Source: Spirochaetota bacterium
GTDB taxonomy: Bacteria > Spirochaetota > Brachyspiria > Brachyspirales > JACRPF01
Direction of reading: 5' to 3'
NCBI GenBank assembly: GCA_016214035.1
Contig: JACRPF010000014.1
Coordinates: forward strand, 62,001 to 126,000
Length of the DNA: 64,000 nt
In this document: one piece after another, positions 13,924-32,841 of the stretch
How the letters are laid out: each line of letters opens with the position of its first letter
Position numbering within the stretch: position 1 is the first letter of the stretch
Notes under the pieces: model-generated
What the model was told of the DNA's origin: nothing
Seen by the model: the letters and a program-made list of their open reading frames with translations, nothing else
Databases searched by the model: none
Position numbers and translations under genes: made by a program

Positions 13924-15825
13924 CTATTTTCCGGATATATCGACAATTTTGAGGTCGTCGAACAGCACCTTGCCGGTAACCGCCTCCAGTCCGAGCGTAA
14001 GGCCGATCGATATGGCCATTTCATGGACGGTATAGGTGAATGAAATGCGCTGCCAGTCGAATGTTCCGGTTCCCACAGGCGCCTGCGGATAATCCATGCG
14101 GCTTTCCGCATCTTTTACGACAAGCATGCACTTGATGCCGTTATATGATTTCGGCTTGTCGCTGACATTTTCAGCTTTTACCAATACGGATACCTCGATC
14201 TTTTTTCCACGCAGCGTTTCGACCGGCAACATCACGCTTGCGCTGTTGCCTTTAGCCTCAACCGCGACTATAGCGAGCGCCGATCCGCTTTTGCCCGGTT
14301 CAAAGGTCAATGCTTCCGGTTGCCATTTTTTAGTATTGCCGCCGTCAAAATTATCCTCGAATATGGTGCCGATATTCTTGACAACCGGTGCGACATCAGC
14401 AACGGTGACTGCTTTCGGTGCCGGCATGACAGGCTGTTCTTTCATCGCTTTCCAGAGCATATCCGCATAACCCTGCATTCCCTTGTCGCCCGGGTGCCAG
14501 TTGACGCCGCCGTTCGAAAACCGCTTTTCGCTTTCCGCTGATGCCGCCGGGTCTGAATGTACTGAAGTGATATCAACGTATACGACGCCCATGCGCGTGC
14601 AGACATTCTTGATCATGGTGTCTTTTGCGGCGCCGCTCCGCCAGGCGCTGCAGCAATAGATGCGTATCGACGGATTCATCTGTTTCAGAGCCGTGATGAG
14701 CTTTTCATACGGTTTTTCAAATCCCGCTTCAGTGGCGTCGCGGTCATTTTCTCCGAGCTGGATGACGGCAAGATCGGCTCCCGCAGCGGATGCAGTTATC
14801 TTTTCAATAGCGGCGAGTTTTCCCGTTATCGTTCCGCCGCCGACAGCGTCGATGAGGAGTTCCGGTTTATTGTCCGGCTGCGCATCGCACAGTTTGGCAT
14901 ACAGGAGATGCACATAATCCTTGTCTTCACTCGATGCCGCCATTCCCCAGTTGCCGCTCCAGCCGAGTTTTTCTACCGCCGGCCCGTGTTTCGTGATGCT
15001 GTCGCCGAGTACGAGCATCTTTTTGACCGTGGGAGGCGTACCGGTAACCGGTGCGGCGGCCGCTGCTGTCTCCTTTGGCGCAGCAAGCGCCGCATTGAGT
15101 TTTTTCATCCCGATATCATATGTTTTCATGATTTCCTCTCCGGTTATTTCGCGGTTATAGATTCGCACTTCATCGATGATGCCGGTGAATCCATGGGAGC
15201 CGTCCGCGGAAAATGCCCCGATGATAAGATCGTTTCCCGACGGCACTATCGACCCGGCGCGCGGCATCGTTCCCGCTGGTTTACCGTTTATATAGACACG
15301 CATCGTGTTCCCGTCATAAGTGGTGACGACATAATTCCATGCCCCGATATTCACCTTTTCCGAGGCGTTCAAGCCATAATTCCATGCACGTTCTTCATTG
15401 GGGATCTGCCATTGTATCGAGTCGCCGCCGGTGTTGATGCGGTAGCCCGCCTTGCCGGAACCTGCCATTTTGACGATAAGCTGGGCGTCATTCTGTTTTG
15501 CTGAAGGTTTCATCCATAACGATATGCTGATGGACGCAGGTGTGTAAGCGGCGGCATTCTTCACGACAACGGCCGATTTCGCTTCCTTTGAAAACGAAAG
15601 CGCTGAACCGGATATTCCCTGAACCCATTGCGCCCGGGTGATTGAAGCGCTTATTTGTCCCGATACGTCTTTTGCTGCATCACCCGCGCCTTCATCAAAT
15701 GACAGCCGCAGGACAGGTCCCTGAGCTAACACCGCAACTGCGCTTAAAAAAAACATAAGCCCGATTGCTGCTCTCATGCCCGCATTTCGGGTAGTTGTGC
15801 GGATAGTAGTGTCATTTGTGGTCAT
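13924..15825 (-). CDS. Exported LamG - SGNH hydrolase - C-terminal module protein (acetyl esterase-like)
   Basis: About 633 residues from the ATG at 15825, which has AGGAG upstream. A signal peptide (MRAAIGLMFFLSAVAVLA) sits near residues 17-35. Then come a LamG/concanavalin-like domain (~40-235; ISISLWMKP, DEVRIYNREI), an Ala/Pro linker, an SGNH domain (~268-465) and a module (~490-633) shared with enzymes of the neighbouring operon. Catalytic landmarks are VLGDSI (Ser276), IQLGEND (Asn360) and NWHPGD (His444). The usual Asp three residues before this His is Val, so a Ser-His dyad or a displaced acid is implied. SGNH proteins of this layout usually remove acetyl groups from polysaccharides. 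Shared upstream elements tie it to the glycosidase operon. Confidence 0.85.
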   Translation of the reverse strand: MTTNDTTIRTTTRNAGMRAAIGLMFFLSAVAVLAQGPVLRLSFDEGAGDAAKDVSGQISASITRAQWVQGISGSALSFSKEAKSAVVVKNAAAYTPASISISLWMKPSAKQNDAQLIVKMAGSGKAGYRINTGGDSIQWQIPNEERAWNYGLNASEKVNIGAWNYVVTTYDGNTMRVYINGKPAGTMPRAGSIVPSGNDLIIGAFSADGSHGFTGIIDEVRIYNREITGEEIMKTYDIGMKKLNAALAAPKETAAAAAPVTGTPPTVKKMLVLGDSITKHGPAVEKLGWSGNWGMAASSEDKDYVHLLYAKLCDAQPDNKPELLIDAVGGGTITGKLAAIEKITASAAGADLAVIQLGENDRDATEAGFEKPYEKLITALKQMNPSIRIYCCSAWRSGAAKDTMIKNVCTRMGVVYVDITSVHSDPAASAESEKRFSNGGVNWHPGDKGMQGYADMLWKAMKEQPVMPAPKAVTVADVAPVVKNIGTIFEDNFDGGNTKKWQPEALTFEPGKSGSALAIVAVEAKGNSASVMLPVETLRGKKIEVSVLVKAENVSDKPKSYNGIKCMLVVKDAESRMDYPQAPVGTGTFDWQRISFTYTVHEMAISIGLTLGLEAVTGKVLFDDLKIVDISGK

Positions 15826-15855
15826 AGGAAATACTCCTGCTGCCTTCATTGTCTA

Positions 15856-15897
15856 ACAGTATACACCGAATTCGATGTTTATTCTTGGTGAATATTA
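15856..15897 (-). promoter_or_regulatory. Two-part upstream element and promoter of the SGNH gene
   Basis: On the minus strand: TAATATTCACCAAGA (15897-15883), 17 bases, then TGTATACTGT (15865-15856), which contains the -10-like TATACT. There is no recognisable -35 hexamer where one would be expected; the conserved 15-mer takes its place. The same arrangement, with one base changed and the same spacing, lies upstream of the glycosidase operon at 29245-29204. This suggests an activator site. Confidence 0.55.
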
Positions 15898-15934
15898 TGT
15901 TTTTTTCTGCATATTTTAAGGAATTGCCGTGTTT

Positions 15935-15963
15935 TTGACCGGGACCGGATGTCATGATATACT
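15935..15963 (+). promoter_or_regulatory. Promoter of the membrane gene at 15970, predicted leaderless
   Basis: TTGACC (15935-15940), a 17-base spacer and TATACT (15958-15963), ending six bases before the GTG start at 15970. Transcription should therefore begin at the start codon. Confidence 0.65.
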
Positions 15964-15969
15964 GTAGTC

Positions 15970-16764
15970 GTGAAAATGAATGTCTGGCTTACAAAGCATA
16001 TACGCCGCGATGACGCACTGGTTGCTGTCTGGCTTGTCATCATATATCCAGCGCTGGCTGTCATATCTGATTCAATACCCGGTATATCGCCGCACAGCGC
16101 CGCCGGTCATGCCATGGCGATTATTTATTTTTTTTTCGCATCAGCTGCGCTCGCGATGTATGCTGTCTGCACGGTAGTTTCAGCCATTCGCAATGCGCGC
16201 GATGTGAAAAACGTGTTTGCGGTATACGCCGCGTTAGTGATAGGTTGTATTGAATATCTTATAATAGGACTAGCGACATTCACTGCGGACTCTCAGAAAA
16301 GCAATGTGATCGTCTATATGATGCTGGTGCTCCTGCTCACGCTCATCGCCGTGACGCTGGCACGAGTGATAACGATATTCTACCGGCTGGCCGCGCATAG
16401 GACGGACGATATTCAAAAAGAAAGTGCTGTTTTGAAATACGGTGCGGGGCCGTTTTATATTGTCAGTGCTCAGAGCGGTGCTTCAGGGATAGCATATTTT
16501 CTGTGCGATGTCCCCAAGTTCGCCGGGGTCATGCATCAGCCGCTTACATTTACGACGCTTCCGGTACTGGCTATGGGACTGGGCGCTGTGCTCCCGTATA
16601 CAATGCTTATCTTTTTTTTCGGCATTGCGGTGCCGCATTACGCGCTCATGTCGCGTAAAGAGCGTACGCGCGCAAGCTGGTTCAAGCGGTATCTCATTTT
16701 TATGTGCGGCATGCTGATATGCACCGGCGTTATGTTCATACTCGGCAGATTCAGAAGCTGGTAA
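15970..16764 (+). CDS. Unknown multi-pass membrane protein
   Basis: 264 residues with seven likely membrane segments, including VAVWLVIIYPALAVISDSI, MAIIYFFFASAALAMYAVCT, VFAVYAALVIGCIEYLIIG, VIVYMMLVLLLTLIAVTLA, TLPVLAMGLGAVLPYTMLIFF and YLIFMCGMLICTGVMFIL. It has no soluble domain and no family motif that I recognise; the layout recalls the sensor half of 7TM histidine kinases but no kinase follows. The GTG at 15970 coincides with the predicted transcription start; an ATG two codons later is the alternative. It is a lone plus-strand gene between the SGNH gene and the glycosidase operon. Confidence 0.65.
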   Translation: MKMNVWLTKHIRRDDALVAVWLVIIYPALAVISDSIPGISPHSAAGHAMAIIYFFFASAALAMYAVCTVVSAIRNARDVKNVFAVYAALVIGCIEYLIIGLATFTADSQKSNVIVYMMLVLLLTLIAVTLARVITIFYRLAAHRTDDIQKESAVLKYGAGPFYIVSAQSGASGIAYFLCDVPKFAGVMHQPLTFTTLPVLAMGLGAVLPYTMLIFFFGIAVPHYALMSRKERTRASWFKRYLIFMCGMLICTGVMFILGRFRSW

Positions 16765-16776
16765 CGCTGTGCGTGG

Positions 16777-16800
16777 AACGGGTGAATGCCGTTTTATTTT
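16777..16800 (+). terminator. Weak terminator after the membrane gene
   Basis: AACGG (16777-16781) and CCGTT (16789-16793) pair around a seven-base loop and are followed by TTATTTT. The stem is only five pairs, so it may be inefficient. It overlaps the stop codon of the convergent glycosidase gene. Confidence 0.35.
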
Positions 16801-18833
16801 ATCATGCACTCGATTGCAGTCATTGAATGCGCCGGAAATGTACCGGTGATGCTGCCGCTAGCGCGTACCGGAATTGATAACCCCGTCACGGTTTCATTCG
16901 CCTGTTCGCCGGATCCGTTTACTGCCGTGAGCGGTCCGTTCACCTGCCAGAGTTTCGCCGCAGACAGCACCGAGCCGTTGATCGCGATATCAGCCGTGAT
17001 GTCGGATTCGGTATGTTTATTGAAAACCATGAGATAGAGTTTTTTCCCGTCACGGGACATACTTGCAGCCGCGGTCATCGCATCGAACGGCGGCTTGTCG
17101 TCAGCAGCTTTAATCTCTATATCTTTTACTTCAACGGTTGCGCTGAACGGTGTTTTGTCCTTGCCGATGATGCGCCAGAGCATGATGAGCTTTTCACAGT
17201 CGGGGAGCACCGTCATGGCGCCTTTGAAATCCGACCATGCGGATGCCGCCTGAAGATCCTCAACGCCGGCCGCCGATTTTGTAGCAGTCCAGCCGCGTGC
17301 GTCCATGAGCCCTATGCCGATACGGTAGGTGCCGGTAGCGCCTGTCGTACGTGCCTTGAATGTTATGCGATAGGTCGTCGACGGCGAGACTGCAAATGTG
17401 GTTATCGCCGGATATCGTTCGCCGGTATATTCGTTGAATTTTACCGTGAGCATTTTTCCATCGGTGTCCCATGCGGCGTTTGCCTCGCTTCCCGATTTCA
17501 GAACAAGCTCAGGAGCTTTAATGCCGCCTTCTTTCGGGTTACGGCGCGGCTCAACGCGCAGCGCTCCGTCAAAACTTATCTTCGGAGACTCGACGGTTGA
17601 TGATACGAGCGTTGTGCCGAAGTGCTGCGCCCAGAGACGAAAAACATAATACGCGGGAAGCTTTTTCCACTCGGCCGTTTTACCGTCCGGCAGCGTCGAT
17701 ATGTCATTCGGACCGCGGACATAGCCCCAATATCCGTTGATGAACTGCCAGTAATTCGCCATGAGGATGTTCTGCTCCGGCTGCATGAGAACTCTGAGAT
17801 AATCGCCGCAGAAGAGCGCGGTGCCGTATGCGAAACGGTAGGGGATGGGCTTTTCCTGGACGAACATGCCGTTATATTCAGTGATGGCAAGCGGAATATC
17901 GCGTCCCGCATTTTCACGTATGACGCGCCGGTATTCGGCAAGCATATCGATGAAGTCATCCACTCCGGCCATGCATGCGCGCATGAGCGTATCGGCGGGA
18001 ATGATGTTTGCGTCGCTGTGGTAGCCCACCTGATAGGTATGCAGCGCGAGAAAATCAATGCTGTCTTTCGCCGTTTTGCAGAGTTCCGCATTCCATTTGT
18101 CATACGGTCCGGTGCCGGTGCCGAGGTGCGGTCCCATTTTTATGGACGGATCCGCCTGCTTCATCGTCCGCCAGCACTTCAGGTAATAATACGTGTACTG
18201 CTGAACGGTGAATTTCTTAAACGGTTTAACGTTATGATTGCCGTGATCTTCCTCGTTACCTATTTCGAAATAGCGGACACCGTACGGTTCCTTATGTCCC
18301 CACTGCGCACGCTTCATCGCCCATGGATGATCTGCGGTCGCCGGGGCGTTGAGATATTCCACGAGTTCCGCTTTATCTTCCGGTGTGCCTACATAGACTG
18401 CCACATTCATAAGCGGTTCTGCGCCCACAGCGCGGCAGTATTCGATGAACTCATCGACACCGAAGGTGAAATCTGGCCGTTCATCAACAGGGCCGACGGC
18501 CATTTTCCAGTCGAAGTTGTGGACAAGACAGCCGCCCGGATAGCGCATCACTTTAACACCGGCGTCTTTCGACATCTGTACCACTTCGGCGACGGTTGTT
18601 TTGTTTTTCCTGTCCCACAAGCCGCTGCCGGTCTTTCCCACCGGACTCTTGTTCTGCCCGAAAATATACTGTGCCTCAGCCGCTTCGGTGTTTTGTCCGA
18701 ACACGAATTGATTGACCGGCCCGACGATGCTTTTCGTGTCGATGGATATTCTCGCCTTCATGACGCTTTCCTGGCCGTATCCCGCCAGCGTCAGCAGTCC
18801 GCATACTATCGCTGCCGAAATGATTGTTTTCAT
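16794..18833 (-). CDS. Exported alpha-L-arabinofuranosidase-like enzyme (paralogue A)
   Basis: 679 residues with a signal peptide (MKTIISAAIVCGLLTLAGYG). The barrel has GVKVMRYPGGCLVHNFDW, YFEIGNEEDHG with acid/base Glu194, and PLAITEYNGMF with nucleophile Glu319, as in GH51 enzymes. An inserted beta-rich module (about residues 430-590: VSPSTTYRITFKARTTG, GLMDARGWTATKSAAGVE) interrupts the C-terminal beta-sandwich, which resumes with LYLMVFNKH and closes with FPAHSMTAIECMIK. It is very similar to the gene at 24614-27022 through the barrel, the insert and the end, but lacks that protein's N-terminal module. It is the last gene of the six-gene operon, 43 bases after the previous stop, with GGAG before the ATG. 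Predicted role: debranching arabinose side chains outside the cytoplasm. Confidence 0.85.
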   Translation of the reverse strand: MKTIISAAIVCGLLTLAGYGQESVMKARISIDTKSIVGPVNQFVFGQNTEAAEAQYIFGQNKSPVGKTGSGLWDRKNKTTVAEVVQMSKDAGVKVMRYPGGCLVHNFDWKMAVGPVDERPDFTFGVDEFIEYCRAVGAEPLMNVAVYVGTPEDKAELVEYLNAPATADHPWAMKRAQWGHKEPYGVRYFEIGNEEDHGNHNVKPFKKFTVQQYTYYYLKCWRTMKQADPSIKMGPHLGTGTGPYDKWNAELCKTAKDSIDFLALHTYQVGYHSDANIIPADTLMRACMAGVDDFIDMLAEYRRVIRENAGRDIPLAITEYNGMFVQEKPIPYRFAYGTALFCGDYLRVLMQPEQNILMANYWQFINGYWGYVRGPNDISTLPDGKTAEWKKLPAYYVFRLWAQHFGTTLVSSTVESPKISFDGALRVEPRRNPKEGGIKAPELVLKSGSEANAAWDTDGKMLTVKFNEYTGERYPAITTFAVSPSTTYRITFKARTTGATGTYRIGIGLMDARGWTATKSAAGVEDLQAASAWSDFKGAMTVLPDCEKLIMLWRIIGKDKTPFSATVEVKDIEIKAADDKPPFDAMTAAASMSRDGKKLYLMVFNKHTESDITADIAINGSVLSAAKLWQVNGPLTAVNGSGEQANETVTGLSIPVRASGSITGTFPAHSMTAIECMIK

Positions 18834-18876
18834 AACGTATACTCCACGTGAATATTTTCTGAACTGAACACGAGCC

Positions 18877-20388
18877 TCATTTAATGTCTTTAATAGTAAC
18901 CGCGCTTACCGAGCATGCAGGAAGCACTACGCTGGCCGGTAATGAAGGCGTATGTATCGTTTCACGAATGCCGTATGTCTCACTGAATGCATTCTCACCA
19001 GAAAACAGCGTGCATGAGATGCCGGCCGCTTTTGAAGCTCCGTCAAGTTGAATGACTGCGGTAACCTCATACTCCAGTTTGTTCACGAGCATAAGGGTGA
19101 CTGCATTGCTGTTCTGCGCCGCAATCACATCGATGCCGGGTGTATCCTTCCCGGCGCGGACGATGCTGTATTTCGCATGGTCAAAACGCGGACCGTCGAC
19201 GGACACCGGTAATATGCGTCCGGACAGCGAGCGGGCATAGAGCGAGAGTACATGCCATGACGGGCGATACATCCATTTACCCTCGGACGGATTTGCTATC
19301 GCGGCGAATCGTGACCAGCCGGAGGATGCCATATCCCAGTTGCAGGCCAGCGGTATGTTCAGTCGTACGAATTCGTTCATCATCGATGCGACGAGAACGC
19401 CGTTGATGGTATGGCCGAGTATTTTGCACATGCCTTTTTCGCCGTAATAGCCGTTGAACTCCGTCATCCATATCGGGAGATCGGGTACACCGGCGTCAGC
19501 AAATGATTTTCGCACCGCCAGAAGTTCTTTCGCCATCTGCGGCGGCCAGCCGAGTACGGTGTGCATGAGTTCATCGGTGCGCTGCTCGGGTTTCGGCGCG
19601 GGGTCAATCCAGCAGTATTCATGGATGATGAACGCGTCGAGATGTTTTCCGGCTATGGCAAGCACGGTCTCGTTCCACGGATCGGTGTCTTTGGTGTAGT
19701 GGCTTTTCCAGTTCGGCCATCCCCAGCCCACACCGCCGATTTTTATTGATGGATCTGCTGCTTTCATCAATCGCGCGAATTCGGGTATGGACGCGGCATA
19801 ATCCTTCGCTTTTTGGGAAACATAGTTTTCATTGCCGATTTCCCAGCAGCGGACGTTATAAGGTAGTGGATGCCCGTTCTCTGCACGGAGTTTTCCCATC
19901 GGTGTGTCGATGCTGCCGTTGCAGTATTCCACCCAGTCGGCTGCTTCTTTCGGCGCCGCGCCGCCGTTCACGGTGATAAGCGGCTCCGCTTTAAGCCGCC
20001 GGCAGAACTCCATGAACTCATCGGTACCGAAATCGAAACGTGTGCCCCCCGTACCGCCGCGCGTTTTACCGACTGCCGCCCGCCAGTCATATTCCTCCGC
20101 TTTCGAACCGCCGGGGAAACGAAGCACCGTTACACCAAGCGGGGCGAGCCGTTCGACAATGCCGTTTTTAAGCGTATGCCCGTTGGTGTCCCAGACCATT
20201 TCGCCGCCGCCGCCCCATACTTTCATGTTGTTCCCGAATATGTGGTTGGAGATGACAGGCCCCGGAGCGTTCAGGTCCACGCGGATAATCGCGCGTGTGG
20301 TTTCGGGATGTGCTGCCGGAACGAAGAGAAGTATCGCCGTAACAATGATCGATGCATATCGAAGTCGTAAAGAGTGTGCCAGTGTCAA
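18877..20388 (-). CDS. Exported alpha-L-arabinofuranosidase-like enzyme, divergent
   Basis: 503 residues. The hydrophobic N terminus (IIVTAILLFVPAAHP) is a signal peptide. Landmarks: TVLRFPGGSKAEEYDW, VRCWEIGNENY with acid/base Glu187, and PIWMTEFNGYYG with nucleophile Glu310. This is a third, more distant member of the GH51-like fold in the same operon, shorter because it has no inserted module. The start is a TTG two bases after the upstream stop codon, with a weak GGATAA; no ATG is available before the signal peptide. Tight spacing means it is almost certainly translated from the operon message. The substrate is likely another arabinoside linkage or a related sugar. Confidence 0.82.
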   Translation of the reverse strand: MTLAHSLRLRYASIIVTAILLFVPAAHPETTRAIIRVDLNAPGPVISNHIFGNNMKVWGGGGEMVWDTNGHTLKNGIVERLAPLGVTVLRFPGGSKAEEYDWRAAVGKTRGGTGGTRFDFGTDEFMEFCRRLKAEPLITVNGGAAPKEAADWVEYCNGSIDTPMGKLRAENGHPLPYNVRCWEIGNENYVSQKAKDYAASIPEFARLMKAADPSIKIGGVGWGWPNWKSHYTKDTDPWNETVLAIAGKHLDAFIIHEYCWIDPAPKPEQRTDELMHTVLGWPPQMAKELLAVRKSFADAGVPDLPIWMTEFNGYYGEKGMCKILGHTINGVLVASMMNEFVRLNIPLACNWDMASSGWSRFAAIANPSEGKWMYRPSWHVLSLYARSLSGRILPVSVDGPRFDHAKYSIVRAGKDTPGIDVIAAQNSNAVTLMLVNKLEYEVTAVIQLDGASKAAGISCTLFSGENAFSETYGIRETIHTPSLPASVVLPACSVSAVTIKDIK

Positions 20389-20390
20389 GG

Positions 20391-21995
20391 TTATTTATCC
20401 TGTTTTGATAAAGTGATCGATCGTAGTGATGCCGTGCCGGTTGCCCCGGCGATATGCGCGACTATCGTATATGCACCGCCATCGACCGTAAACACCTTAT
20501 CCGCTTTCGTCATCGGCGTATTATTCCATTTGAGGGCATTGTCCTGTGATTTCCAGTTCCCGCTTTTGTTGATATATACGGTGAGCAGACCGCCGGCTTC
20601 CACGGAAAGTCTGTACGTGCCGGTTTGGAGCTTCACGCCGCGATATATTTTTGAATCCCATGTTGTCCCGGTGATTTCGAGCACGGCTGACGTACCTTCG
20701 CCTTTGACGCTCATCGTTGTACTCGAGGTGGCCGACCACACCGATGTGTCAGCCTTTGTCGCGAATGAAAATGCATACTCGCCGCTTTCATTCTTTCTGT
20801 TCGCTGCGGCTTTCTCGGCAATGAAAGTTTCGATGGCGCCGATGTTCTGTTTCGGAAGTTCATTTCGCTTCAGATAGCCGAGCACAAGTTTTGCGCGATC
20901 GGTCAGATACGTTGCCATCGGCGGTACCGGCATGCCTTCTATCCAATCCATCGCATCGGCATACTCAAGGCTCCAGCCGTTGTATTCCCGGAACGCGTGA
21001 TAGCTCCACGACCAGCCCTGCGACTCCCAGAACTCGATGAGGTCATTGAGGTATCTGAGTCCCGCTTCCTTCGGCGCCCAGCGTATGACGCTGAACTCGC
21101 CGAGATAGATAGGCACGTTATACTTTTTTTGAAAAGCGATGGCGGGTGCTGCTATCTTCGCAATAGTCTCCTTGTCGAATACGTTGAGGTCGGGGAGACG
21201 GTGATATGAAAGTTCCCAGGTGTCCCGCTTCAAATCCTCAACGGGCAGCGGGTAGGGGATGTTCACTTTTGTCATCGCCTGCGTAAGCTCGGTGTTCTTC
21301 ACATTCCAAATACCCTGATGCGTGAACATGTGCGGGAAGTAATAGTGACCGCTGTAGATGACCTTTGTGTCCGGCAGCGGTTCGAGGTCGAAAAAGCCGG
21401 CGAACGTACCGCCGGGCCCTGGTTCATAAATGATCCACGTGTCCTTGTCTATCTCGCGGATGGCGCTTGTTATCTTTATTGCAAGTTCGCGCCATTGAGC
21501 CGGTGATCGGGGCGCGACACTGCGGTCAAGCGGTTCATTCATGAGATCGTAGCCGTACACCGAATCGCGGTAAGGATAAACCCGTTTCGCGATGCGCCGC
21601 CACGCTTCAACATGGTACTGCTCAAGATCGGGGTGCGTCCAGTATTCATTCTTGTCACGATTGACGCCGGGGATGAATGACCCGAGTGTCAAAATCACCT
21701 TGATGCCGGTTCCGCGGGCGTTGGAGACTACCTTCTCGGCGTCGTTTTCCACCTGCTCAAACGCCTTCCAATAATCGCCCGCAGGTATTTTGCTGATGGG
21801 TTTCAGATGCACGCGCATATTGTTGGCGCCCCAGAGTGCGGCGTCTTCGAATGTCTGTCGCTGTAATGCTGCGCCGCCGGTATTGAATCCGCGTGTCATC
21901 ATTGGTTTATCCTTCGCAAAGGAACTTGATGCGAGCATCATGCTTATTCCGAACATAAGCAGCATGGTTGAACATGGCGCAATAGTATGCTTCAT
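20391..21995 (-). CDS. Exported GH5-like endoglycanase with C-terminal beta module (paralogue A)
   Basis: About 534 residues from the ATG at 21995, which opens a signal peptide (STMLLMFGISMMLASSSFA). A TIM-barrel follows with GYDLMNEPLD (acid/base Glu154) and PIYLGEFSVIRWAP (nucleophile Glu300), the hallmark of GH5. After ~residue 405 a separate ~130-residue beta-rich module (FATKADTSVWSATSS to LRSITLSKQDK) looks like a carbohydrate-binding domain. The barrel is clearly related to that of the first operon gene (SWSYHAFREYNGWSLEYADA against DWSYHAFREWPGWSVEHADA). Expected action: cutting a beta-1,4 backbone (glucan, mannan or xyloglucan) outside the cytoplasm. It sits 23 bases after the GH42-like gene. 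Confidence 0.87.
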   Translation of the reverse strand: MKHTIAPCSTMLLMFGISMMLASSSFAKDKPMMTRGFNTGGAALQRQTFEDAALWGANNMRVHLKPISKIPAGDYWKAFEQVENDAEKVVSNARGTGIKVILTLGSFIPGVNRDKNEYWTHPDLEQYHVEAWRRIAKRVYPYRDSVYGYDLMNEPLDRSVAPRSPAQWRELAIKITSAIREIDKDTWIIYEPGPGGTFAGFFDLEPLPDTKVIYSGHYYFPHMFTHQGIWNVKNTELTQAMTKVNIPYPLPVEDLKRDTWELSYHRLPDLNVFDKETIAKIAAPAIAFQKKYNVPIYLGEFSVIRWAPKEAGLRYLNDLIEFWESQGWSWSYHAFREYNGWSLEYADAMDWIEGMPVPPMATYLTDRAKLVLGYLKRNELPKQNIGAIETFIAEKAAANRKNESGEYAFSFATKADTSVWSATSSTTMSVKGEGTSAVLEITGTTWDSKIYRGVKLQTGTYRLSVEAGGLLTVYINKSGNWKSQDNALKWNNTPMTKADKVFTVDGGAYTIVAHIAGATGTASLRSITLSKQDK

Positions 21996-22018
21996 AGATT
22001 TTCCAGTATGAATCGTTA

Positions 22019-24589
22019 TCAACGAGCAACACGCAGTACACGTGTTTCGCCGAACTTCATATCAAGCGTCACTTCCGGTCCGCCGATCTTCTCGTTACTG
22101 AACGCATCGAAAACCGTGCCGCGGGCGTTTATTGTCACTGAACCGGTGATGCTCGCATGTACCGCGATATATGGTCCGTTCGCACAGACGACGGCATCGG
22201 TCTCCGAATAGAGATGTACACCGGCGCGTTTCGCGATATATCTGAGCAGTGACTGCGGGAGTTCCGTTGTAGCGACGAACACCGATGTACCGCTTTTTCC
22301 GGAACGTATCACAATAGCCGGTTTGCCGTCGGAAAAAGCGGCGATGACCTCATCGCTTCCTTCAGTAACCGGTGAGAGCATCGGCCTGACAACCGCGTCG
22401 GGTCCGAATTGTGCGGTGATGCCGTATTTTTGCGCCGCTTCCGTAGCGGTCACACGCGCATTCAGTCCGTCGGGGAATTCCTTCACCGAAAATCCGGTCA
22501 CATCGCGTACCGATGACGTGGATAATTGTCTCCCGTCGATATAGCCGGGAAGCCAGCACCACACCGCCGTAGCATTGCCTACAGCTTTAGTCAGTTGCAT
22601 ACGCTGCTGGGCGGATAACGCGAGTGCGTTGACGAATACATACATCTTAGCCTTTACTTTGCCGGCAATGACATCCTCGATAAGATACTGCCCGTACGGC
22701 GCACCCATGAGATTGAAATTGGAACGTGATGTATATGCGAGCGGCCGCGTGGTAGTGTATGCCGCATTGCTCGCAGCGATATACCGCATGCTCTGTTCAT
22801 CAATTACAACCGCCACTTCCGGCTGATACGGCGTGGGATTTTTCATAAAATAATTGTCCATGGCATCGAATCGTTTCATATCGGCCCAGAGCGCCGGGTC
22901 GTTGAACCAGCCGGATCCGCCGAGGTCCATCCACCATGTTGCGATGTTTCTGAACGCCTCAAAGGCAATATTACGGATGAGCAGATTTCGTGTCTCATTC
23001 AGATTCGCCCCGCCGTCCTTCCAGCCGGGGAATGATGTTTCTTTGGTCAGATGCGTTTTGGTGTCGTCCTCGTTCAGCCACATCTTTCCCGAAAGTGCAA
23101 CGCTTTCTGCGGCCGTCATTACCGTTGTCCCGCCGCCGAGGCCGCGATGGAAATACGATATCGGAGCACAGAGTACGTCGATATCCTTACTGGCAAGCAG
23201 CCGTCCTATCGCGTAATGGCCGGAGTTTGCGGGACCGTTCTGGACTCCGGCGAATTCGAACAGATATCCGTAGAAGAACATGCTTATCTTTTTCGGCGCA
23301 CCTTCGCGTATCGCACGTCCGAGCGCAAGTATCATATCGGTCATCGATTCCTGGCGGAACTTTTCGAATTCGATGATGTTGCCCTGTGCTTCGGGATGGC
23401 GTATGTTGCCGGTCGCTGCGCGCCGCTCCTCGGGCGTGGGGACATTTTTACCCGTTTTCGCGAGCCACGCGGCACCGGTAGCCTCGTCATAGCCGCAGAG
23501 CGGATACTTCCATGAATCGTAATAGAACCATTCGTCGGTGTTCTGCCCGGCCGGATGATAGCCGAGTATCGAATCGCCGAAACGTTTTTCAAGAACAGCG
23601 ATGAGGCGTTTGAGCGCCAGAGCCGCCTCGGTGCGGTATTCCGCGGATGCCACGCATGCCTGTTCGTTCTCTTTCCCGTTCTCATATTTCATCGATGTGC
23701 CCGGATGCGACTTGCGCCACCATTGCGGTGCGTTCATATTGATACGCGGGAGCAGGAGCGCCTTCGGGTTCACTGACAGCACTTTTTCGCATGCGGAGAT
23801 TGCCATGGTATAATCTTCTTTTCCGGGTTCATTCCAGCACAGGCGTACCGGAAAACTGACGATGTTGACACCGCCGTCCATGGCATGTTTCATCTCGCTT
23901 ACGAACGGTCCAGGAAGTCCGGCGTAAAAACGGTAATCGCCGCCCAGATGGCGTACTTCCGGACGTATGAATCTGTCGGGTGCGGAGGACGCCCGGACTG
24001 AAACCGTATAGCGGTGGTCTTTTACTGTCGGAAATGCCTTTGAATAGAGATGAAATCCGTTGATGCTGTCGTCTTTTTTCAGCGTTATCTGAAGTCCGGT
24101 AGAAGCGTTATTCCCTTTGCCCGGTACGGTGACGATGTTTACCGATGGCGATTTCACATCCTTGCACCAGTAATTCCATGCATTCGTGAACGCACCCGCG
24201 TCACCCTCGAAGTCTGACCGGTAGACATCTTTGCCTGACGTATCGTCGGTGATGATGATGTCGTCGACGATTATGGTTCCGGAATCCTCGCCGAAACGAA
24301 GATGCAGCGTGCATTGACTGTCATCGGTCACGGCGTCGAACGAGAACGAATGTTTCTCCATTCTGCCCGTGAGCGGGTTATCACCGCCGCTGCCGAATCC
24401 GTGTCCCCAGAAAATGCGCGGACGAACCGGCGTGCCGTTTACCACAAGCAACGGTGCGCCGTTACGTACTTCCACTTTTGCCGTAAGCGCGGAGACCGGT
24501 GATGTACTCATGCCCAGAACTCCTGCGATAAGCATGAACAAGCGTGCCGAAACGTGCATAGCCCCGAATAGATTTCTGCCGATTTTCAT
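22019..24589 (-). CDS. Exported GH42-like glycosidase with N-terminal beta domain
   Basis: About 856 residues from the ATG at 24589, which has GGAGG upstream. A signal peptide (LFMLIAGVLGMSTSPVSA) precedes a jelly-roll-like region (~40-215; LHLRFGEDSGTIIVDDIIITDD). The barrel (~225-590) has ALLLPRINMNAPQWW and GYHPAGQNTDEWFYYDSWKYP, positions like the GH42 first half, where NTDEW is the candidate acid/base site. KMWLNEDD may carry the nucleophile. PEVAVVIDEQSMRYI starts a GH42-type amidotransferase-fold domain. The match to classic GH42 motifs is loose, so it could be a related family (GH-A). It is the third gene of the operon. Confidence 0.72.
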   Translation of the reverse strand: MKIGRNLFGAMHVSARLFMLIAGVLGMSTSPVSALTAKVEVRNGAPLLVVNGTPVRPRIFWGHGFGSGGDNPLTGRMEKHSFSFDAVTDDSQCTLHLRFGEDSGTIIVDDIIITDDTSGKDVYRSDFEGDAGAFTNAWNYWCKDVKSPSVNIVTVPGKGNNASTGLQITLKKDDSINGFHLYSKAFPTVKDHRYTVSVRASSAPDRFIRPEVRHLGGDYRFYAGLPGPFVSEMKHAMDGGVNIVSFPVRLCWNEPGKEDYTMAISACEKVLSVNPKALLLPRINMNAPQWWRKSHPGTSMKYENGKENEQACVASAEYRTEAALALKRLIAVLEKRFGDSILGYHPAGQNTDEWFYYDSWKYPLCGYDEATGAAWLAKTGKNVPTPEERRAATGNIRHPEAQGNIIEFEKFRQESMTDMILALGRAIREGAPKKISMFFYGYLFEFAGVQNGPANSGHYAIGRLLASKDIDVLCAPISYFHRGLGGGTTVMTAAESVALSGKMWLNEDDTKTHLTKETSFPGWKDGGANLNETRNLLIRNIAFEAFRNIATWWMDLGGSGWFNDPALWADMKRFDAMDNYFMKNPTPYQPEVAVVIDEQSMRYIAASNAAYTTTRPLAYTSRSNFNLMGAPYGQYLIEDVIAGKVKAKMYVFVNALALSAQQRMQLTKAVGNATAVWCWLPGYIDGRQLSTSSVRDVTGFSVKEFPDGLNARVTATEAAQKYGITAQFGPDAVVRPMLSPVTEGSDEVIAAFSDGKPAIVIRSGKSGTSVFVATTELPQSLLRYIAKRAGVHLYSETDAVVCANGPYIAVHASITGSVTINARGTVFDAFSNEKIGGPEVTLDMKFGETRVLRVAR

Positions 24590-24613
24590 AAAATCCTCCA
24601 AACGAATTCCGGG

Positions 24614-27022
24614 TTATTTTACAGTCAATTCATATGCCGTCATTGAATGAGCGGGAAGCACGGCGTTGAACGAACCGCCGGATATACCCTCAACGGCAGC
24701 GCCCGAGAGCGTTTCACGTGCGGACTCTTTACCGCCGTCCTTGTTGTCGAGTTCGGGGGCGTTTACCTGCCACGCTTTGCCGGATGCAATCGATACGCCG
24801 TTGACGGCAATGCGTGTTGTTATGTTATTCAATGCGCTTTTATTGAATACGATGAGATAGAGTGTCTTTCCGTCGGCGGCGCGGCTGGCGCTTGCGGTGA
24901 GGAGATCATACGGCTTCATCGGCTTTCTGACAACACGTAAGTCCTTCACCTCGATGGATGCTTTTATGCCGGCGGCCGAGGTACCGCGCAGACGTCCGAG
25001 TATCGATATGCCGGTTGCGTTCGGCAGCGTATTGTATTCACCTTTAAACTCGTACCAGTCGCGTTTGGTTTCTATCCCCTCGATGCCGATGGCCGATTTC
25101 GTAGCCGTCCATCCGCGTTTGTCCATGACGCCGAGACCAAGAACGAAATTCTCCGGATCTCCCGTAACGCGCGCTTTGAATGACACCTCATAGGTCGACA
25201 TGGGTGACACCGCCGCTGCGATGAATTCCGGATACTGGTCGCTTTTCACGCCGTGGATGTCAACGGTGAAAGCATCTTTGCCGGTTACACGGAACGTGTA
25301 CTGATCCGTACTCTGTTCCTCAAGATTGAACGCCGGTGTATCGATGATGTTCGCGATTTTCGCCTCGAATTTCGGCGGCGCGGTTTTTATCTCGAGCAAT
25401 TCGGTTCCGAAATGCTGTCCCCAGAGGCGGAATGTGTAATACGCGGGAAGTTTGACATATGAACCGCCCATCGGACGGATGAAGCCCCAGAAGCCCTGGA
25501 TGAAATGCCAGTATTGTGCCATGAGCACATTGTTGGCGGGTTCAAGCATGTGCCGGACATAATCGGCACAGAAGAGCGCTGCCCCGTATGAATACCGGAA
25601 TTCATGATTGCCGCCGTTGAATTCAGTGATGGCCATGGGGATGTCTTTACCGGCGTTCTTTCTGATGACTTCGCGGTATTCGGCAAGTCTCGCCGCGGCA
25701 ACGTCGGTGGATCGCATATACATATCGTCGGGTGACAGATACGTGTGTATCGCGATGAAATCCGCCTTGTCTTTTACTATGGAAAATACTGTCGCGTTCC
25801 AGGGATCGGACGGGGGAGTACCCGTGCCAGCATGGACACTCATTTTTATGGTAGGGTCCACCTTTTTCATCAAGCGCACGCATTCAAGATAATATGCCGC
25901 ATACTGCTCGGCGCTCCATTTCTGACGGGGCTTCACGTCATGATTGCCGTGATCCTCCTCATTGCCTATCTCAAAATATTTTACGCCGTACGGTTCCTTG
26001 TGCCCCCATTGCGCGCGCTTCATCGCCCAGGGATGTTGACTCGTCGCCGGTGCGTTCAGATATTCAACGAGATCGGCTTTATCCGCCGCCGTACCCACGT
26101 AGACCGCCACATTCATGAGCGGCTCGGCTCCCACCGCGCGGCAGTATTCTATGTATTCATCGATGCCGAACGCAAAATCAGGACGCTCTTCATACGGCCC
26201 CACGGCTTTATGCCAGTCGAAATTATGCACAAGACAGCCTCCGGGATAGCGTATCGCTCCCATGCCGACATCTTTTGAGAATTGTACAACCTCGGGAACA
26301 AGCCGGCGATTCTTCGGGTCCCATACTCCGTCGCCGTTTCGTCCCTTGGGGCTCGGGTATGCCCCGAAAATATCCTTGCCGTCGGCGGCCTCGAGATTAT
26401 GGCCGAATATCAAACGGTTGACGGGCCCTTTCACGCGTAATGCATCCACGGTAATACTGCCGGAAAGGTCCTCTTTTGCCGGCGGTATCACGGTACTCAG
26501 CTCCTGCGCTTTTTCGGATGTCACTATCGACACATCATCGAACCAGGCTTTGCCCGTCACCGATTCCAGTCCAAGATAAAAATATGCCGCGGTTGTATCC
26601 GAAGGTACATCAACGGTGAACTGCACTCGCTGCCAGCCGAAGGTGCCCACGCCGACAGTCGCCTGCGGCCAGTCTTTTTTAGCGGGCGTCTGCCAGTGGA
26701 ACATTATCTTGATGCCGTTCCATAATTTCGGTCTTTCGCTCACATTCTCGGCTTTTACCATTGCGGTGATTCGGATCTTTTTTCCTTTTACCGCAGCCGC
26801 ATCGAACGTATACATAGGCTTGTTCGCTTCGGGCGTTTTCTGCTCAACACACATCGCCGTGCCGCGGTCTGTCTTTTCCAGTGTGTAGGTGCCGTCCTTC
26901 CAGTTCTTCGCGACAAGTTCGGCGTTTTCAAAATTCTCGGTGAATACCGGTGTCTGTGCGTACATGTGCATGCTCATACAGCATATTCCGATCATAGTGA
27001 TAATGCTGCTGCGTATACTCAT
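24614..27022 (-). CDS. Exported arabinofuranosidase-like enzyme with N-terminal module (paralogue B)
   Basis: 802 residues. The signal peptide (IITMIGICCMSMHMYA) is followed by the operon's shared module (~25-168; VKAENVSERPKLWNGIKIMF, GTFGWQRVQF, LGLESVTGKAWFDD), then a GH51-like barrel with AIRYPGGCLVHNFDW, YFEIGNEEDHG (acid/base Glu355) and PMAITEFNGG (nucleophile Glu467). A second module inserted before the final strands (MSTYEVSFKARVTG, GVMDKRGWTATKSAIGIE) matches the one in the gene at 16794-18833. The two are close paralogues that differ by the gain or loss of the N-terminal module. The ATG overlaps the upstream TGA (27019-27022), so translation is coupled. Expected to debranch arabinose while held on the polysaccharide by the module. 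Confidence 0.86.
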   Translation of the reverse strand: MSIRSSIITMIGICCMSMHMYAQTPVFTENFENAELVAKNWKDGTYTLEKTDRGTAMCVEQKTPEANKPMYTFDAAAVKGKKIRITAMVKAENVSERPKLWNGIKIMFHWQTPAKKDWPQATVGVGTFGWQRVQFTVDVPSDTTAAYFYLGLESVTGKAWFDDVSIVTSEKAQELSTVIPPAKEDLSGSITVDALRVKGPVNRLIFGHNLEAADGKDIFGAYPSPKGRNGDGVWDPKNRRLVPEVVQFSKDVGMGAIRYPGGCLVHNFDWHKAVGPYEERPDFAFGIDEYIEYCRAVGAEPLMNVAVYVGTAADKADLVEYLNAPATSQHPWAMKRAQWGHKEPYGVKYFEIGNEEDHGNHDVKPRQKWSAEQYAAYYLECVRLMKKVDPTIKMSVHAGTGTPPSDPWNATVFSIVKDKADFIAIHTYLSPDDMYMRSTDVAAARLAEYREVIRKNAGKDIPMAITEFNGGNHEFRYSYGAALFCADYVRHMLEPANNVLMAQYWHFIQGFWGFIRPMGGSYVKLPAYYTFRLWGQHFGTELLEIKTAPPKFEAKIANIIDTPAFNLEEQSTDQYTFRVTGKDAFTVDIHGVKSDQYPEFIAAAVSPMSTYEVSFKARVTGDPENFVLGLGVMDKRGWTATKSAIGIEGIETKRDWYEFKGEYNTLPNATGISILGRLRGTSAAGIKASIEVKDLRVVRKPMKPYDLLTASASRAADGKTLYLIVFNKSALNNITTRIAVNGVSIASGKAWQVNAPELDNKDGGKESARETLSGAAVEGISGGSFNAVLPAHSMTAYELTVK

Positions 27023-29133
27023 TTCCCGGCCTCCGCGATTCTGATATTGTCGAACAACGCCTTGCCGCTCACTTTTTCAAGTCCGAGCGTAAGTTCAATC
27101 TTCACCGCATTCACGGGGACTTGTACCGTAAAAGAAACGTCGGTCCAGTCGAACGATCCGCCGGGAAGGTTTTTCTGCAGATAATCCTTTTTGCCGTCGT
27201 CTTTGCTGATGACGAGCATATATTTGATGCCGTTATATTCTTTCGGCGGCGTACTTACATCCGCGGCTTTCACCTTTGCCGTGCAGATAATCGTTTTGCC
27301 CTTCATGCGTTCCACCGGAAGTACGGCTACGGTGTTTTTTGTTTTCGTCGCATCGTCAAGCTCGATGGCAAGCGCCGTTCCGCTGATACCGGCATCCATG
27401 GTGTAATTCTTTGCCGGGAACGCCTTGCAATCCGCGGTGTCGAACGGCTCGTCGAAATAAACGCCTTCGGGAAGCGTTTTTACCGCAGGGACGTCGGCTT
27501 TCGGGGGTTCAACAGGTTTTACTTCGGCGGGCGGAGGAACGTTTTTTATCCATTTTGCAGCATCGGGATACAACGGCTTTTTGTTTTTTGCGAACCACGA
27601 GAGGAGCACTTCCTTGCGTGCGGTGGTTGCGGCCGGATGATGCACGTTCTTGTCCACCGGCGCATCGGCGTGTTCTACGCTCCATCCCGGCCATTCGCGG
27701 AATGCGTGATACGACCAGTCCCATCCGTATTCCTCGAATATCTCGATGACGTCGGATAGATATTGTGCGCCTCCGGGCGCCCAGCGTACCGCGCTGAACT
27801 CGCCCACGTAGATATGCGCATTGTACGCAAGCTGGAAATCGCGGACGTGTTTCAGTACTCCTTTCAGTGCGTCTTTGTCGTACATCTTTTTACTGATCAT
27901 TCCCGGATAGGTGATGCCGGTGGTATTGTTGTAAATGCCCTGATGCGTAAACTCGCCGGGCTCATACATGTGCACCTGATAGACGATGTTCGGCACATTG
28001 ACGGGCATCATCTCGGCGAAGCCGCGCGGAGAGTCCCATTCAAGCACCTCGACGATGATCGGCATGACGGGGTCGATGGCGCGAATCGCTTTCGCCGCGC
28101 GCGTCTGCGTGGCGTGATAGTCCATGTCGGATGACGCCGGTTTTGCCTCGACGGGTTCGTTGACGAGATCGTATCCCCATATCGCGGGATGCCCCTTAAA
28201 CCGTTTTGCGAAACGTTCCCACACCGTGACAAAGTGGTCCTGATATTTCTTTTCATAGAACATGCGCATGCTGCGGTCTTCATACCGGCCGCCGGGCGGC
28301 GAGTGCAGATCCACCACGACTTTGAAGCCGTACGTGAGCGCGGAGTTGAGCAGCCGGTCGAGGTCGGTCATCTCCTCCTCGATCCATGCATCGTATTCGG
28401 CAAGGTCGAGGTCGGTGTTCGCCGCGCCCCATTTGCGCGTCATCTGATAGCGGACAAGGTTGGCGTTCCATTCTTTTGCAAATACGCGAAAGTCATCGTC
28501 CTTCACCGAGTTCGGCGACATCGCGCCGCGCAGACGAGGGAGATCGTGGCCGCGATACATCGGCGGCGGATTGACCATGGGTGCCGGACGGGCGGGAGCT
28601 TGAGTCTTTATGACGACGATTTTCGGTTTGTCGAACCACACTTCGCCGGTGCACATCTCAAGCCCGAGGCTGAGGTCGGCATTGAGAATGTCATCGTCGA
28701 TCAACTGCACGAACGATATCTCCTTCCAGTCGAACGTGCCGTACACATCACCCTGATTCTGATAGGATTCGCGCGCCGGCGTCTTGAAGTGCAGCATCCA
28801 TTTGATGCCGTTGTACGACTGCGGTGCTTTGGTGACGTTCTTCGCTTTTACCATGCATGAAAGATGCAGTTTCATCCCTTTATATGCGGAAAGATCGATG
28901 GGCATACCGATCTTGTGATGTCCCGGCGTTTCGCTTGCCGGTACGGTTACTTTCAAAACGATGCCGCCGTCCTTACCTTCTTTCACCCAAGCGGCGAATG
29001 GAGCTTCCGACCATTTTCCCCGGTCGGCTTCCTTGTTAAAATCCATCTGCAGAGCGTTGTCCCCGCGTTTAATTTCCGCATGCATTCCCGCAGCACAGAA
29101 GAACAGGCCGATCAATGACAGCAACAGTTTCAT
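27019..29133 (-). CDS. Exported GH5-like endoglycanase flanked by two copies of the shared module (paralogue B)
   Basis: 704 residues with a signal peptide (MKLLLSLIGLFFCAAGMHA). The first module (~25-175) has VKAKNVTKAPQSYNGIKWML, GTFDWKEISF and LGLEMCTGEVWFD. The GH5 barrel (~195-510) has VVVDLHSPPGGRY, GYDLVNEPVE (acid/base Glu326) and HIYVGEFSAVRWAP (nucleophile Glu445). A Pro-rich linker (~532-555) leads to the second module (~556-704; VKAADVSTPPKEYNGIKYML, GSFDWTDVSF, LGLEKVSGKALFDN). This is the first gene of the six-gene operon and the only one with two modules. GAGG lies before the ATG. Expected to open the backbone of the target polysaccharide. Confidence 0.9.
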   Translation of the reverse strand: MKLLLSLIGLFFCAAGMHAEIKRGDNALQMDFNKEADRGKWSEAPFAAWVKEGKDGGIVLKVTVPASETPGHHKIGMPIDLSAYKGMKLHLSCMVKAKNVTKAPQSYNGIKWMLHFKTPARESYQNQGDVYGTFDWKEISFVQLIDDDILNADLSLGLEMCTGEVWFDKPKIVVIKTQAPARPAPMVNPPPMYRGHDLPRLRGAMSPNSVKDDDFRVFAKEWNANLVRYQMTRKWGAANTDLDLAEYDAWIEEEMTDLDRLLNSALTYGFKVVVDLHSPPGGRYEDRSMRMFYEKKYQDHFVTVWERFAKRFKGHPAIWGYDLVNEPVEAKPASSDMDYHATQTRAAKAIRAIDPVMPIIVEVLEWDSPRGFAEMMPVNVPNIVYQVHMYEPGEFTHQGIYNNTTGITYPGMISKKMYDKDALKGVLKHVRDFQLAYNAHIYVGEFSAVRWAPGGAQYLSDVIEIFEEYGWDWSYHAFREWPGWSVEHADAPVDKNVHHPAATTARKEVLLSWFAKNKKPLYPDAAKWIKNVPPPAEVKPVEPPKADVPAVKTLPEGVYFDEPFDTADCKAFPAKNYTMDAGISGTALAIELDDATKTKNTVAVLPVERMKGKTIICTAKVKAADVSTPPKEYNGIKYMLVISKDDGKKDYLQKNLPGGSFDWTDVSFTVQVPVNAVKIELTLGLEKVSGKALFDNIRIAEAGK

Positions 29134-31085: not shown

Positions 31086-32798
31086 TTACCGTTTCACCCG
31101 CAGCATCTTCGTCTGCACTTCTCCGCCGTTGAGGTGATAGAGCAACGGCTCGGGTCTGTCCGTTCCCGCGATGAATTTCGGCCGTGCCTGCCACGGAGTG
31201 ACCGAGAGCACATTCGCCATATCCATCCAGTACTGCAGACGTGAAGGTTTGAGGTTCCACGTCATATGAAAGTGATTTGCCGGAGCGTATTGTTTGTATT
31301 CAAGCATGTCAGCATACTTCGGCACTACGAATGTGTGCGGCCAGGTATTGTTTGAAGTATTGTATACTTTCTCCGCCAGCTTTCCCGGAAGTTCAACGGT
31401 TACAGCTTCGTCCCATATCATCGAGAAGAGGCCGTTGAGCGAGCTGTATGCGAGCCGTGCCGCGATGCCTTCGATGCCGCCGGGCGATACGAAGAACACC
31501 GAGTTGCCCATGCCGGGGAAATAGCCTTCATCGGCAAGCGGGAAACGGACGCCGCGCATGATCTCTTCGATGGATGCGCCGGGCTTTGCCGCCCAGTCGA
31601 ACGCAGCGCTGCCGGAGTTGTCGCCGTCAACGATGCCTTTTCTTGCCCAGAGTTCATCGCCGTATTTGATGCCGAGTTCATCGGCGGCTTTCTTGATTTC
31701 CCACGGTTCCCATACCTTTCTGAAGTCCATGAACAGGGGAGGATTCCCGCCGGAAAGCCATGTGGAGAAGAGCATGGTGAGGAGACCCTGAACGTCGGCT
31801 TCGGTGCCGAATGAAAGCGGAGTCTTTCTGCCTTCATGGTCGAACGTGGAATTGAAGAGCGATTCCATGATGTCGGCGACCGGAAGCGGGACGCCGCGCA
31901 TATCCGAACCCCATTCAAGCTGGCTCATGAAACCGCCGCCCACGGCGTTCAGGTCTTTCATGAGGTCACGGACGATGAGATACATCGCGAGGCTCTGACG
32001 GAAACGCTCATTATCCTTATCGTCGCGAAGCTGGACTTTGTCTTTGCCGAAACGAAGTATCCAATTTTCAAGAGCATCGAGTTCGGCTTTTTTATATGCT
32101 TGCTTTTTGAGCATGTCGGCGACGAGTTTCATATCGAGGCGTGTGATCTCAAGACCGAACGTGTTACGCGTGGGGATGATGTGACCGAGCGCCGTTTCCA
32201 TGCCCATCGAATCGTGTCCGAATACGACAACGCGGCGGCCCTTGAGACCCTGAAACGTGACAGCCGAGAAGCACCAGTCGACAAGAGCGTCGGCAGTGGC
32301 ATCGGTCATCACCGGGTTCGATCCGGTATCGGCCCAGGTGCCCACGTTCAGGTGGACAAGACGGCCATACTGACTTATCGCGCCGCTTGCCGCATGTGCG
32401 AACACAACGCCCGGTTTCGGACCGCTGTTGCCGCAGGTGAGATTAATAGGCGTGTCGGCGGGGAATTGCGATAACAGAGAAATCACGGTGAGCTGCGGGA
32501 ATGCCCAGGTGTCTGGAACGCAGACGATGATGTTCACGCCGCTGTCCTTGAATACCTGTGCCACGGCATCGGCCTGCTTTTCACCGTCAACAAGAAGGTC
32601 GGAATATACAACGCGGACATCGGTGCCGTCGGGCATTTTCACCCGCGATGAGAGGATGTCGGCGGTCATTTTAATGATATTGACGCAGCGTTTGCGCGAA
32701 TCTTCATCGATGCGCGGGTCGCTTGTTGCAAAAACGCCTATCGTGGGTTTTCCGCTCTCAATCTTCCGCGGTATTTTCAGTTGTTCAGCAGATGCCAT
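31086..32798 (-). CDS. L-fucose isomerase-like sugar isomerase
   Basis: About 570 residues from the ATG at 32798, which has GGAGGAG upstream. The fold markers of the L-fucose/D-arabinose isomerase family are present: PTIGVFATSDPRIDEDSRKRC, VVCVPDTWAFPQ-like strands, SFGTEADVQGLLTMLFSTWL (metal-ligand Glu), PLFMDFRKVWEPWE (metal-ligand Asp) and NHFHMTWNLKPSRLQYW (His). The enzyme would interconvert an aldose and ketose (L-fucose, D-arabinose or a related sugar) with Mn2+ in the cytoplasm. No kinase, aldolase or transporter is adjacent, so the pathway must be completed elsewhere. It may use a sugar released by the glycosidase system 2 kb away, but nothing in the regulatory sequence links them. 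Confidence 0.88.
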   Translation of the reverse strand: MASAEQLKIPRKIESGKPTIGVFATSDPRIDEDSRKRCVNIIKMTADILSSRVKMPDGTDVRVVYSDLLVDGEKQADAVAQVFKDSGVNIIVCVPDTWAFPQLTVISLLSQFPADTPINLTCGNSGPKPGVVFAHAASGAISQYGRLVHLNVGTWADTGSNPVMTDATADALVDWCFSAVTFQGLKGRRVVVFGHDSMGMETALGHIIPTRNTFGLEITRLDMKLVADMLKKQAYKKAELDALENWILRFGKDKVQLRDDKDNERFRQSLAMYLIVRDLMKDLNAVGGGFMSQLEWGSDMRGVPLPVADIMESLFNSTFDHEGRKTPLSFGTEADVQGLLTMLFSTWLSGGNPPLFMDFRKVWEPWEIKKAADELGIKYGDELWARKGIVDGDNSGSAAFDWAAKPGASIEEIMRGVRFPLADEGYFPGMGNSVFFVSPGGIEGIAARLAYSSLNGLFSMIWDEAVTVELPGKLAEKVYNTSNNTWPHTFVVPKYADMLEYKQYAPANHFHMTWNLKPSRLQYWMDMANVLSVTPWQARPKFIAGTDRPEPLLYHLNGGEVQTKMLRVKR

Positions 32799-32841
32799 TG
32801 GCTCCTCCAAAACATGTTATTTGTTCGAAATTCGATGCTTA

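Follow-up and report, generated by a model that had tools for sequence, protein, structure and literature searches.

A repeated module of about 148 residues on GH5, GH51 and SGNH enzymes of a Spirochaetota gene cluster: a candidate family of carbohydrate-binding modules

Why should an endoglucanase-type enzyme, an arabinofuranosidase-type enzyme and an esterase, encoded in one gene cluster, carry the same additional domain? The question is raised by a stretch of 64,000 nucleotides (the window) from a Spirochaetota bacterium (assembly GCA_016214035.1, contig JACRPF010000014.1, positions 62,001 to 126,000), in which one protein module occurs four times. The homology, fold class, catalytic partners, distribution and conservation of the module were computed. 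We consider it highly probable that the repeat is a carbohydrate-binding module (CBM) of about 148 residues, constituting a family of its own within the superfamily of CBM4, CBM16 and CBM22 type and targeting the enzymes of the cluster to one polysaccharide. This reading is preferred because four homologous copies are spread over three exported enzymes that one cluster encodes and because the best PDB matches of a confident beta-sandwich model are mostly CBMs.

The four copies, placed by alignment and hidden Markov model (HMM), and the three genes that carry them are as follows:

13927..14370, minus strand: copy M1, C-terminal in the LamG-SGNH protein (residues 494-641)
26510..26953, minus strand: copy M2, N-terminal in GH51c (residues 24-171); the copy used for the model
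28603..29061, minus strand: copy M3, N-terminal in GH5a (residues 25-177), directly behind the signal peptide
27022..27468, minus strand: copy M4, C-terminal in GH5a (residues 556-704), behind a Pro-rich flexible linker
13924..15849, minus strand: LamG-SGNH gene (signal peptide, LamG domain of the Laminin_G_3 type, SGNH/GDSL esterase, module)
24614..27022, minus strand: GH51c gene (signal peptide, module, GH51 barrel with an inserted CBM_4_9-like domain)
27019..29133, minus strand: GH5a gene (signal peptide, module, GH5, linker, module; 704 residues)

The initial annotation had proposed four copies sharing the pattern VKAxxV, P, [YW]NGIKxM, G[TS]FxW, LGLE, [TS]G and [WL]FD; all four were recovered in their places on the minus strand, with the pattern present. 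In pairs the copies are 24-44% identical with about 146 residues aligned, which makes the repeated unit about 148 residues long. The unit of about 90 residues initially described was ruled out, since the similarity spans the longer stretch and the model folds as a single domain; what had been caught is the better conserved second half. Pairwise phmmer scores were 48.6-109 bits, as compared with best scores of 5.5-10.6 bits for shuffled sequences (2,100 shuffles per copy). An HMM built from M1-M4 gave 222-228 bits per copy and found no significant fifth copy in the six frames of the window.

An AlphaFold2 model of M2 (13 sequences) was a mostly beta domain with a pLDDT of 97 and a pTM of 0.90. 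The best solved matches found by Foldseek were modules of CBM70 (4d0q), CBM22 (4xup, 2w5f and 1dyo), CBM30, CBM16 (2zew) and CBM4 (2y64 and 1gui), with 10-19% identity and TM-scores up to about 0.74. The structure closest in sequence, 8ag9, was absent from the 50 Foldseek matches listed and may lie outside the structure library; the support for the fold therefore stands on the other entries.

Searches of the family libraries showed that the module is not a plain member of Pfam CBM_4_9 or CBM_4_9_1, as all four copies fall below the cut-offs. No module stretch of the window proteins reached the 25.9 bits of PF02018 (CBM_4_9), M1 scoring 14.9 bits, and the 27 bits of PF22637 (CBM_4_9_1, BppA domain 1) were likewise not reached, the best copy being again M1 (17.7 bits, E 0.0044). 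Among 56 family members, three matched PF02018 at E < 0.01. A homologue at locus L085 passed its cut-off with 32.6 bits. NCBIfam contained no family for the module and gave one chance-level match to a phage fibre (E 0.017); a plasmid collection gave no module match and only distant GH5 barrels.

Profile-profile alignment by hhalign of the module with 14 CBM_4_9 domains from its own genome gave 97.5% (E 6.3e-12, 15% identity), and the motif [WYH]NG[IVA]KxM occurred in none of these 14 domains. Common ancestry and a shared beta-sandwich fold with PF02018 are thus detectable by hhalign, AlphaFold2 and Foldseek. Judged from sequence and model, the module is a distinct branch of the CBM_4_9-type superfamily, because of the sub-threshold Pfam scores, the predicted fold, the Foldseek matches and the profile-profile alignment. 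The suggestion of a divergent CBM4/9/22-like jelly roll agrees with the sub-threshold CBM_4_9 and CBM_4_9_1 scores, the hhalign result and the structural likeness to CBM70, CBM22, CBM16 and CBM4. The whole genome (G000) has 28 matches to PF02018 and is thus rich in this fold class beyond the module.

When PDB sequences were searched with hmmsearch, 8ag9 was the sole strong match (E 8.9e-36 with the four copies, 6.9e-49 with the 56 members); the latter match spans profile positions 16-149 of 151 and covers the whole domain. M3 matches the N-terminal domain of 8ag9 as well as module-GH5 proteins from other phyla. With the 56 members, partial matches were obtained for 4d0q (E 3e-4) and 1gui (E 0.05), no full-length similarity to solved members of CBM22, CBM4, CBM16 or CBM70 was significant, and no CBM22 or CBM16 chain appeared at E <= 10.

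The Pfam, NCBIfam and PDB comparisons matched the module to no described CBM family with high significance, the finding that the initial annotation had named as the one to look for against it. Its remark that the module was not recognised as an established CBM family stands as far as entries in Pfam and NCBIfam are concerned and fails in one respect: the domain is already present in a solved endoglucanase structure, 8ag9, and so is not unseen. The module family is real and of a well-known kind; it is uncatalogued as far as Pfam, NCBIfam and the literature searched go.

The family is marked by P-x-x-[WY]-N-G-I-K-x-M, [WY]-P-Q, G-[TS]-F-D-W and L-G-L-E-x-x-[TS]-G-x-x-[WL]-F-D. Over the 56 members, and in M2 numbering, G80, K82 and G134 are invariant (56/56 each) and M84, F105, W107, G128 and L129 almost so. 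Position 78 is W or Y in 54 of the 56 and position 95 in 53. These two near-universal, W/Y-interchangeable positions, in loops beside strands, appear to resemble a sugar-stacking site.

The strong host set comprised 61 proteins with a module of at least 85 bits: 50 GH5, four GH51, three SGNH, one GH5 plus SGNH and three others (a different GDSL type, a contig-end fragment and a protein whose N-terminal part is coiled-coil-like). Below 85 bits, weaker modules were present at L112 (81 bits), on an acetyl-xylan-esterase-like protein of AXE1 type, and at L051 (58 bits), where the protein has a GH123 N-terminal-type domain. As in CBMs as a class, a discrete fold is found with different catalytic domains (GH5, GH51, SGNH, GH5 plus SGNH, AXE1) and also standing alone. 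The CBM-like behaviour noted at the outset is borne out by an autonomous beta-sandwich, many unrelated catalytic partners and stand-alone secreted forms. One protein at L085:959-3748, in a genome of the same phylum, unites the module with both a GH5 barrel and an SGNH esterase, two enzyme types that separate genes encode in the window.

The predominance of GH5 hosts, with the module N-terminal in nearly all, would also suit a beta-sandwich that serves this GH5 type as a structural or stabilising element, packed against the barrel and assisting folding or thermostability, and that was shuffled along while binding little sugar. The short linker between M3 and the GH5 barrel points the same way, as does the PDB, where the module is seen solely paired with GH5 (8ag9) and its isolated folding has no known precedent. 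We regard this explanation as unlikely: the module occurs at either protein end and on GH51, SGNH and AXE1 enzymes, in tandem (L084 and L110), and in small proteins without a catalytic domain, composed of a signal-like N-terminus, the module and little else (e.g. L065, L066, L075 and L078). M4 follows a probably disordered linker, residues 532-585 of GH5a being predicted with low confidence, as fits such a segment. Moreover, 8anx and 8b3y (335-346 residues), two solved structures closely related to the GH5 barrel, lack the module, showing that the barrel folds independently of it.

The small module proteins, together with the sharing of the module by several exported enzymes of one cluster, could instead indicate a cell-surface or protein-protein anchor that holds the cell's own envelope glycans or a partner protein and gathers enzymes in a dockerin-like manner. 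We consider this very improbable, because several phyla with differing envelopes have the module on single enzymes, its structural neighbours are mainly polysaccharide-binding CBMs and the cluster showed no scaffold protein.

Several observations weigh against carbohydrate binding as the function. In most members the module always occupies the N-terminus of one GH5 type and is joined by a short linker, an arrangement that a structural role fits too. G80, K82, M84 and F105-x-W107 could belong to the core or to an interface. Binary-toxin B components were among the Foldseek matches, the fold thus serving other functions as well. Finally, no paper on carbohydrate binding by the N-terminal domain of 8ag9 was found, nor a published ligand or CBM number for it. 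Within the literature found on 8ag9, 8anx and 8b3y, a single paper cites 8ag9, as a best PDB match, and the Thermogutta terrifontis papers found treat other GH5 and DUF1080 proteins.

Should the module be a CBM, as we favour, each copy would bind the same polysaccharide backbone, beta-1,4-linked as in a glucan, xyloglucan or xylan, with W/Y78, W/Y95 and the invariant K82 as putative contact residues on an exposed face. The ligand would be a decorated beta-1,4-linked plant polysaccharide, because the partners are an endoglucanase-type GH5, an arabinofuranosidase-type GH51 and an esterase. By its presumed concentrating effect, the common module would hold backbone cleavage (GH5), side-chain removal (GH51) and de-esterification (SGNH) on one substrate. 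The more specific proposal, a CBM family unnumbered in CAZy, recognisable by [WY]NGIKxM...GTFDW...LGLE and sharing a specificity for a decorated beta-1,4-glycan across GH5, GH51 and SGNH enzymes, seems to us evenly balanced between true and false.

The distribution of the module was determined in sampled genomes, at E <= 1e-8 for other phyla and E <= 1e-10 in the window's own. It was detected in 9 of 294 genomes from the phylum of a Planctomycetota locus, 41 of 289 from that of a Verrucomicrobiota locus, 30 of 151 from that of an Armatimonadota locus and 4 of 296 from the window's phylum, counts in which weak matches grade into CBM_4_9 domains at large. As the N-terminal domain of this GH5 type the module is common in Planctomycetota, Verrucomicrobiota/Lentisphaerota and Armatimonadota. 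The genome of the window has six strong copies; besides the four in the window, a second GH5 protein carries two.

A tree built from 96 modules, supported by SH-aLRT only and with many forks open, places M3 with N-terminal GH5 modules from genomes of another phylum, with identities up to 70%. The C-terminal modules that SGNH and GH5 proteins carry in the window's phylum fall into another set (support 91), within which each type has a starred subclade to itself (96); the N-terminal modules of GH51 are placed close to this set without firm support. The simplest reading of these sequences would be an old module-GH5 unit, a later duplication to the GH5 C-terminus and, in the window's lineage, a spread to SGNH and GH51 enzymes, an order of duplication steps that we infer.

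If binding is true, a CBM family found in at least four bacterial phyla and absent from Pfam and NCBIfam gains a function, and can be annotated automatically across many genomes. A common targeting domain on chemically different enzymes would mark those that act on the same polysaccharide, and the cluster offers a ready case for testing the spread of a CBM between enzymes.

GH5a matches Pfam Cellulase at 3.3e-29, and its residues 48-526 (barrel and module) match 8ag9 at E 1.7e-122. N325-E326 and E445, invariant among 8 homologues, are presumably the acid/base and the nucleophile. The full-length model of GH5a was middling (pLDDT 73) and was excluded from domain-domain geometry. The LamG-SGNH protein matches Laminin_G_3 (1.5e-29) and Lipase_GDSL_2 (1.2e-12). 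GH51c matches solved arabinofuranosidases at E values down to 1.2e-33, as well as Pfam ASD1_dom, CBM_4_9 (residues 603-671) and Alpha-L-AF_C, the last spread across residues 471-793.

GH51c and GH51a each have a second CBM_4_9-like domain, different from the module, which lies after the barrel and ahead of the end of Alpha-L-AF_C. In GH51c (residues about 560-690) it exceeds the PF02018 cut-off at residues 603-671 and is inserted before the end of the C-terminal beta domain, so that this protein has two unlike CBM-like domains; in GH51a (16794-18833) it was read from the sequence.

The remaining genes of the cluster, placed from open reading frame coordinates and Pfam, are:

16794..24601, minus strand: module-free genes GH51a, GH51b, GH5b and GH42-like

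From 29133 to 13924 the order, on one strand, is GH5a, GH51c, GH42-like, GH5b, GH51b, GH51a and LamG-SGNH. Most junctions are short, overlapping or almost touching, a pattern consistent with one operon; a gap with one opposite-strand open reading frame separates GH51a from the LamG-SGNH gene. All seven proteins start with a signal-peptide-like sequence, as judged by eye. At L082, in a genome of the same family, the order module-GH5-module, module-GH51, module-free GH51 and LamG-SGNH-module is likewise kept.

The exported GH42-like protein (22019-24601, 860 residues) gave a marginal match to Glyco_hydro_42 (E 0.038, below the cut-off) and is possibly of a divergent GH42-like family. GH5b (20391-22022) has a different, beta-rich-looking C-terminal extension (residues about 410-543) with no Pfam match above the cut-off. 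The cluster is flanked by genes for an L-fucose isomerase-type protein (31086-32810) and a GH42 beta-galactosidase (2168-4297), which suggests local sugar catabolism.

Among known systems the closest is 8ag9, from Thermogutta terrifontis (PMC11071339). Its N-terminal domain (residues about 25-162) has the complete signature of the module (PWNGIKCM, WPQ, FDW, GLENVTG and WFD) and, as in GH5a, precedes the same type of GH5 endoglucanase. Unlike the window, 8ag9 shows a single N-terminal copy and no GH51 or SGNH partner. CBM70 (4d0q, from a pneumococcal hyaluronate lyase) gave the top Foldseek E-value and the second-best sequence match (E 3e-4), but this match lies in the second half alone, the TM-score is 0.59 and a hyaluronan ligand is unexpected for the module. 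The xylan-binding CBM22 modules (1dyo, 4xup and 2w5f) share the beta-sandwich, with TM-scores of about 0.7 to the model, although identity is 12-17% and the profile misses CBM22 in PDB sequences up to E 10. CBM4 (1gui, a Thermotoga laminarinase; 2y64, a Rhodothermus xylanase) and the PF02018 domains, which differ from the module by their 15% identity and, in the 14 compared, by lacking [WYH]NG[IVA]KxM, belong to the same fold class.

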